A stretch of 32,268 bases of DNA from a virus. Position numbers and translations under genes: made by a program. The DNA lies in IMG/VR virus record IMGVR_UViG_3300042922_000137, positions 1 to 32,268 of that record, one strand, 5' to 3'. Of the stretch, positions 14,572-15,312 are shown in pieces. Each line of letters begins with the position of its first letter. Positions within the stretch are counted from its first letter, which is position 1. Under the pieces are notes generated by a model. That model did no database searches and was not told the DNA's origin. It worked only from the letters and a program-made list of their open reading frames with translations.

Positions 14572-14655
14572 TGGTGCTACCTGATGGAATCGAACCACAT
14601 AGCCTCAGCGCCGGATTTACAGTCCAGTGTATGTCCCAGCATACTTTCAGTTAGC
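14572..14655 (-). tRNA. tRNA-Tyr (anticodon GUA)
   Basis: Read on the minus strand, the 5' GCTAACT pairs with AGGTAGC (one A-G mismatch) and ends in an encoded ACCA. The anticodon stem CTGGA/TCCGG encloses the loop CTGTAAA with anticodon GTA. A long variable arm (GCTGAGGC region) follows, as in bacterial class II tRNA-Tyr, and the T-loop is TTCGATT. The D arm is GTATG/CATAC with a short loop. A phage tRNA can compensate for codon-usage differences or for host tRNA cleavage. Confidence 0.9.
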
Positions 14656-14732: not shown

Positions 14733-15030
14733 AGACCCTGTTCTAAGCATGCTTCCATAGGAGAGGATGGTTACACACTATCAAGGTCTGAAAGATAGGT
14801 CCGAGGAGAGGGCAGACCATCTTTAATGCTGATGGAGGAGAAGACATCAGCGTGTGAAGGCACATTTTTATTTAGAATTGCTTCTGTCAATGTGCCGGGT
14901 GAAATAGGTGACGGGCCAGATGTGTGCTGCACAGGATACCGATGCACACCAACGGCCTAAATCGACTAAGACTCTAATCGGCTTAGGTTGATATCCCTGA
15001 TAGCCATTTATTCCCCGTCTGGGGCTAATC

Positions 15031-15077
15031 CGCGGAACTCAATTAAGAGTTTCGAACTTCCGTTCTCATCAGCCGCG
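15031..15077 (-). ncRNA. Hammerhead ribozyme, type I
   Basis: On the minus strand all conserved core elements occur in order. Stem I is CGCGG (15077-15073) with CCGCG (15035-15031). CTGATGA lies at 15072-15066. Stem II is GAAC/GTTC closed by a GGAA tetraloop. GAAA follows at 15053-15050. Stem III is CTC/GAG with the loop TTAATT, and the cleavage triplet is GTT. Position 15.1 is A and 16.1 is U, as required. Self-cleavage is predicted between 15036 and 15035. Stems II and III are capped and stem I is open, which makes it type I. Such a match is very unlikely by chance. Confidence 0.8.
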
Positions 15078-15312
15078 TTCCGCTTGTGCGGGAATTCATT
15101 GCACCCTAAAGTCGTATAGCTGAATTCTGAGTAAATACCAACTCACCGTCTCTTCAGGATGTCTTTATCAGAACTCGACGCCTCTACTTGCTAATGGGAG
15201 GACCAAAATTAGCTTTTGAGGTGAACATCCTCACGGGTAGTTCGCATTCTGACTTTTAGTGCTTCAAGAGCCTACAATTTAAAGTCAATTAAAAATGTGT
15301 CACTTATACAAC

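Follow-up and report, generated by a model that had tools for sequence, protein, structure and literature searches.

The window, that is, the whole stretch of 32,268 nucleotides of viral DNA analysed here (IMG/VR record IMGVR_UViG_3300042922_000137), carries on its minus strand a candidate type I hammerhead ribozyme and, directly 3' of the predicted cut, an RNA domain of about 100 nt with a predicted double-pseudoknot fold (15035-14909); a tRNA-like element lies downstream. The features of the locus are:

15080..15092, minus strand: small hairpin CCGC-ACAA-GCGG directly 5' of stem I (sequence, folding)
15031..15077, minus strand: hammerhead ribozyme of type I, cleavage predicted between 15036 and 15035 (sequence, descriptor, fold, homologues)
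15031..15035, minus strand: N2-CGCG(G), at once the start of unit 2 and the 3' strand of stem I of the hammerhead; N2 is C15035
14990..15035, minus strand: unit 2 (N2CGCGGA, P4, PKb loop strand, PKa tail strand)
15028-15024 with 15004-15000, minus strand: P4 hairpin of unit 2 (covariation)
15019-15014, minus strand: PKb loop strand of unit 2 (covariation)
14994-14990, minus strand: PKa tail strand of unit 2 (covariation)
14956..14987, minus strand: capped linker hairpin CCUAA...UUAGG joining unit 2 to unit 1 (arrangement A)
14909..14955, minus strand: unit 1 (N1CGUUGG with N1 = C14955, P2, PKa loop strand, AUCUGG, PKb tail)
14948-14944 with 14927-14923, minus strand: P2 hairpin of unit 1
14940-14936, minus strand: PKa loop strand of unit 1
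14915-14910, minus strand: PKb tail strand of unit 1
14905..15034, minus strand: stretch aligning with Enterobacter phage SDFMU_EhYP (73% identity), starting at the cleavage site
14572..14655, minus strand: tRNA-like element with GUA anticodon and encoded CCA, downstream of the domain

Read on the minus strand, positions 15077-15031 consist of CGCGG, CUGAUGA, GAAC/GGAA/GUUC, GAAA, CUC UUAAUU GAG, UU and CCGCG, with the predicted cut before the last of these. They form three helices whose strands enter via stem I (5 bp in stem I, 4 bp in stem II, and 3 bp besides A15.1-U16.1 in stem III), and the type I core (CUGANGA, GAAA and A15.1-U16.1) is present together with the NUH triplet GUU. A strict descriptor of core, spacing and triplet matched once in the window, versus 0.01 matches expected in shuffled sequences. 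The minimum-free-energy structure of the isolated 47-mer is the three-way hammerhead fold; with some flank added, a competing pairing beats this fold. The Rfam check proposed in the earlier note did return a match, to model HH9, at 21.1 bits (E 0.024) and thus below the gathering score of 52, which is a curator's filter and no defining feature of a hammerhead ribozyme. Fold energy and Rfam were both undecided, and a comparison with homologues was therefore required.

The comparison confirmed the window copy as a hammerhead, with cleavage predicted between 15036 and 15035. The ordered core that the earlier note had read on the minus strand is intact, with an NUH triplet, at exactly the same place in 91 of 122 homologues, which carry 86 different stem II/III sequences; the GUU triplet and the predicted cut were re-read from the minus strand and agree with the first reading, and the defined 5' end predicted at 15035 for the downstream RNA is well supported by the comparison. 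The hairpin directly 5' of stem I (15092-15080) may keep the stem I strand free, and could be the source of a loop-loop tertiary contact between stem I and stem II; a similar element was also found in homologues L046 and L074.

The family was collected from a match in phage SDFMU_EhYP (EhYP), obtained by searching phage records with the intergenic region of the window; in EhYP, a hammerhead with the same core and different stems directly precedes the conserved stretch. A pattern built from this stretch gave 56 viral contigs and a looser pattern at least 120, and the collected family comprises 122 distinct homologues, including the window. For covariation analysis, 52 homologues were aligned with their units placed in the order of arrangement B (see below). 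Four helices covary in this set: P2 (98.8% paired, with both partners altered in 106 of 260 cells; at most 66.5% paired after shuffling), P4 (98.1% paired), PKa (90.4% paired; shuffle maximum, 53.1%) and PKb (98.9% paired, with the compensatory pairs GC, CG, TA and AT). Hairpin 2, counted separately on unit 2 alone, had a covariation score of 0.648, versus 0.146 when shuffled. An additional pair covaries between the fifth base of NCGU[G/U]GG in unit 1 and the [C/A] of GGAAUAA[C/A]U (GC in 41, UA in 11), and the domain also contains highly conserved unpaired bases, e.g. GGGGAAUAA. The window matches every element of the family, with the additional pair in its U-A form and one unpaired position in P4 (U15028/U15000); its unit 2 is matched by model R1 with 59.3 bits (E 7e-11).

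Both units, of about 45 nt each, follow a common plan of NCGYGG, a hairpin, a loop with a pairing strand, a short linker and a pairing tail. PKa joins the P2 loop with the tail of unit 2, and PKb joins the tail of unit 1 with the P4 loop; since the pairings are exchanged between units, the molecule resembles a domain-swapped dimer that a tandem duplication has fixed. Units 1 and 2 may share an origin, as judged by eye only.

Three arrangements were distinguished among the 122 homologues. In arrangement A (24 copies, including the window, EhYP and E. coli prophages) the order is hammerhead, unit 2, linker hairpin, unit 1; in arrangement B (76 copies) it is unit 1, hammerhead, unit 2; and in arrangement C (22 copies) the hammerhead is absent and a short linker, mostly of 1-3 nt and up to about 19 nt, connects unit 1 to unit 2. 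The copy of the Microcystis phage, about 97 nt long, is such a form without hammerhead. Circular permutation turns A into B, and in both the hammerhead, where present, is placed to cut exactly before N2 of unit 2. The core is intact in 24 of 24 A copies, and the triplets of the 91 intact cores are GUC (65), GUA (18), GUU (3), AUA (2) and AUU, AUC and CUC (1 each). Decayed cores were found in a few B copies (L093, L082, L130, L137, L184; the core of mycobacteriophage Gaia, for example, reads UUGAUAA), which suggests that cleavage is dispensable in places; the B copies L109 and L148 were scored as without hammerhead, but appear to contain one whose stem III is longer than the filter allowed.

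Some variants were observed in addition. Position 10.1-11.1 is A.A or U.U instead of G-C in about one third of the intact hammerheads (in B, e.g. L033, L054, L067, L073). L064 (2569-2784) carries the hammerhead-domain RNA twice in tandem, 172 nt apart, with C and U as the N bases. The linkers between units 1 and 2 in L077 (a Patescibacteria contig), L021 and L137 are 37-47 nt long and contain no intact hammerhead; possibly, these are decayed hammerheads or other structures. In L033, L039, L028 and L069, similar short hairpins (e.g. AATTCGCCC-AACA-GGGCAACG) flank the RNA on both sides, as if these were moved or arrayed copies. Streptomyces phage phiSASD1 (L097, 1995-2035) contains half of a unit 1 after a tRNA-like end and without unit 2, which is likely a remnant.

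The base preceding CG is identical in units 1 and 2 in 120 of the 122 homologues (CC 60, GG 50, TT 9, AA 1), among them all 30 sequences not counted as carrying a hammerhead core. In the 52-sequence set, 51 matches of N1 and N2 were seen, compared with 22.5 predicted from composition, and on a rough tree (from a short alignment, hence poorly resolved) the N base changed at least 33 times. No third position in the alignment correlated with N1/N2 (mutual information at most 0.2 bits). The identity of N1 and N2 could be explained if both read one partner base in trans, or if they contact each other on a pseudo-twofold axis. We know of no other RNA with such same-base covariation.

The domain is carried by EhYP, the Pectobacterium phages Pappous and Taid, phage Setonix, the Arthrobacter phages Karkharias and Constance, mycobacteriophage Gaia and Microcystis phage Mwe-JY26, by prophage regions in 15 of 5,426 E. 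coli genomes, and by single contigs labelled Bordetella trematum, Burkholderiaceae and Patescibacteria. Only one of 399 Burkholderiales genomes matched under stricter filters, and this was the one already known, which argues against an ordinary bacterial gene; plasmids gave no match. None of the records inspected annotates the domain as RNA, and several have 'hypothetical protein' calls overlapping it. Searches of the window and the homologues with the Rfam 15 covariance models, at gathering and relaxed thresholds, placed the domain in no family; they left sub-threshold hammerhead and tRNA-like matches (e.g. 28.7 bits, with a threshold of 34, for the EhYP-like copy L024 and the type I hammerhead model), scattered low-score miRNA, snoRNA and riboswitch matches, and a weak permuted-tmRNA match in L050 outside the element. 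No description of the domain was found in the open-access literature, although a preprint or subscription journal may contain one. On these grounds, the RNA domain appears to be new; the hammerhead itself is of a known kind.

Of the 122 homologues, 35 have a tRNA call within 150 nt of the domain, nearly always on its strand, compared with 9.2% of random windows from the same loci; ARAGORN was used with relaxed settings for this count and some calls are false. The C copies in L023, L026 and L094 sit within arrays of 27, 11 and 16 tRNA calls, respectively. In the actinophage copies L023, L026, L066, L092 and L093, unit 1 begins one base past the discriminator base of a tRNA, and in L023, L026 and L066 a further tRNA follows within a few bases 3' of unit 2. 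Copies without hammerhead often have tRNAs on both sides, or a long closing stem. In about one third of the B and C copies the flanks form a closing stem of 11-22 bp, unconserved in sequence, and in 35 of 98 B/C loci this stem equals or exceeds every mismatched-flank control. Such a stem is likely a substrate of the RNase III type; RNase P and RNase III would be the enzymes releasing the domain from tRNA flanks and closing stems, respectively. It thus looks as though a single core is excised in alternative ways, by a hammerhead, by a closing stem or through flanking tRNAs. The hammerhead is placed relative to unit 2 and not to the tRNAs, so nothing suggests that it processes tRNAs.

Relatives that share the adjacent 137-aa protein (51-85% identity) lack hammerhead and domain. 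The earlier note had held that loss of the core in relatives keeping the flanks would speak against a ribozyme; relatives that keep parts of the flanks without the hammerhead exist and lack the whole domain too, which indicates loss or gain of a module rather than decay of a chance motif. An upstream segment is kept in L014 (86% over 96 nt) and a downstream segment in L009 (85% over 67 nt); the noncoding region is thus a mosaic, in which hammerhead and domain travel together. The 'long structured RNA upstream of tRNA-Tyr' of the earlier note is accordingly a set of separable modules, among which the discrete double-pseudoknot domain had been overlooked.

The reading that we favour, and consider reasonably probable, is that the phage encodes a distinct noncoding RNA, structured, freed by interchangeable devices and acting in trans. 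The motif, its covariation and permutation, the conservation of the hammerhead and the association with tRNAs are shown by the comparison; cleavage in the cell, excision, action in trans and the molecular role are what we infer here. The minus-strand transcript would fold into the type I hammerhead and cut between 15036 and 15035, releasing a compact two-unit domain with a 5'-OH end at C15035, in which each hairpin loop would pair with the tail of the other unit to give a quasi-twofold double pseudoknot. Elsewhere, the domain would be freed through its 11-22 bp closing stem (RNase III type) or its tRNA flanks (RNase P and tRNA 3' processing). In the simplest reading, the product would be a stable RNA that acts in trans and is produced alongside phage tRNAs or late mRNA. 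A more specific version, which we put forward only tentatively, is a new class of phage RNA that is an internal domain-swapped dimer with symmetric NCGYGG sites, forced to carry the same N, and with alternative release devices; the same N would then arise because both sites read, in trans, a single nucleotide in a partner RNA, or because they form a like-with-like pair on the axis.

The families of flanking genes differ among phages and none is fixed among the homologue loci as a clue to function, which fits a stand-alone RNA; however, many copies lie shortly upstream of same-strand terminase, portal, head or packaging genes, and this fits a role in cis as well, in which cleavage by the hammerhead would leave a late mRNA with a 5'-OH terminus and the double pseudoknot would cap it, shielding structural-gene mRNA from decay. 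In E. coli prophage L091 the RNA is flanked by antiterminator Q and holin, and in EhYP by capsid and tail genes, positions that agree with such a role. Yet the closest gene downstream shares the strand of the RNA in only 77 of 113 cases, much like the upstream gene (73 of 110), its family varies, and the copies within tRNA arrays have no mRNA to protect; we regard the cis role as unlikely. A switchable, aptazyme-like ribozyme was considered because NCGYGG is common to hammerhead stem I and unit 2, so that domain folding or ligand binding could toggle cleavage: in every form with a hammerhead, the conserved beginning of unit 2 doubles as the 3' strand of stem I, and unpaired bases of the domain are highly conserved, but the 22 C copies conserve the domain without any ribozyme and no metabolic gene is a fixed neighbour, which makes the switch improbable. 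That the hammerhead is mainly a structural or decaying mobile piece, tolerated as an insertion in a surface loop and with little cleavage in the cell, seems very improbable given 91 intact cores with NUH triplets and diverse stems and the intact core of every A copy, even though decayed cores occur and the loop may alternatively be 1-3 nt. Group I intron, tmRNA and codon-anticodon ideas were also considered and found no support.

GOLLD and ROOL are large structured noncoding RNAs of phages that are often located near tRNAs; the domain is likewise structured and near tRNAs, but GOLLD and ROOL are much larger and gave no Rfam match here at relaxed thresholds. The type I hammerheads described from bacteria and phages, including PaP3 and Bcep176 (Perreault 2011, PMC3088659), share with the present one the core, the three helices, the NUH site and the phage setting. 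The present ribozyme differs in being joined to a conserved RNA, and about one third of its family differs in having A.A or U.U at 10.1-11.1; the domain is absent from the PaP3 and Bcep176 genomes, which were searched. HDV-like theta ribozymes beside phage tRNAs, with a proposed role in trimming tRNA 3' trailers (PMC10879173), are also self-cleaving phage RNAs next to tRNA genes, but have an HDV-type fold, whereas the hammerhead here is fixed to a noncoding RNA and not to tRNA ends; the general HDV models of Rfam (none of them theta-specific) found no nested double pseudoknot of this type in the window and homologues. Permuted tmRNA, known among other permuted RNAs (PMC10085705), resembles the domain in its circularly permuted gene orders; it has tRNA-like and mRNA domains, whereas the domain here has neither, and ARAGORN scans of the window and homologues detected no tmRNA. 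The circular permutation observed here would follow from the two exchangeable units, i.e. a natural permutation explained through internal symmetry. Natural hammerheads of phages would gain a visible purpose, the freeing of one particular conserved RNA, and the RNA class so added spans phages of at least three bacterial phyla, including E. coli prophages that are accessible to laboratory work. The tRNA clusters of phages have long been puzzling; a conserved RNA within them that is not a tRNA would be a direct handle on their role.

Further elements of the window flank the ribozyme and domain. Upstream, at about 15260-15160 (minus strand), a conserved noncoding segment (GUCAGAAUGCGAACUACCCG...GUCGAGUUCUGAUAAAG) is 86% identical in L014 (2159-2253) and has no match in annotated phages. 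Downstream, at 14900-14660 (minus strand), an array of hairpins with CCUCUCC-type loops leads up to a long, almost perfect hairpin (14731-14668, folding z -5.3); the array belongs to no Rfam family, precedes the gene of the 137-aa protein, and occurs in versions of different sequence in L008-L011, L014, L015, L017 and L018. The tRNA setting assumed by the earlier note holds for the family, whereas the downstream tRNA-Tyr of the window itself (14655-14572) is less secure: ARAGORN made no call, and the element scored 33.9 bits on the tRNA-Sec model, although it is conserved in Pseudomonas phages. Its acceptor stem seems to span 9 bp and its T stem 4 bp, which is unusual and resembles tRNA-Sec or allo-tRNAs. 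A counterpart lies in L007 (about 1501-1595), and in Pseudomonas phage ventosus the element is conserved beside tRNA-Asn with apparent compensatory changes.
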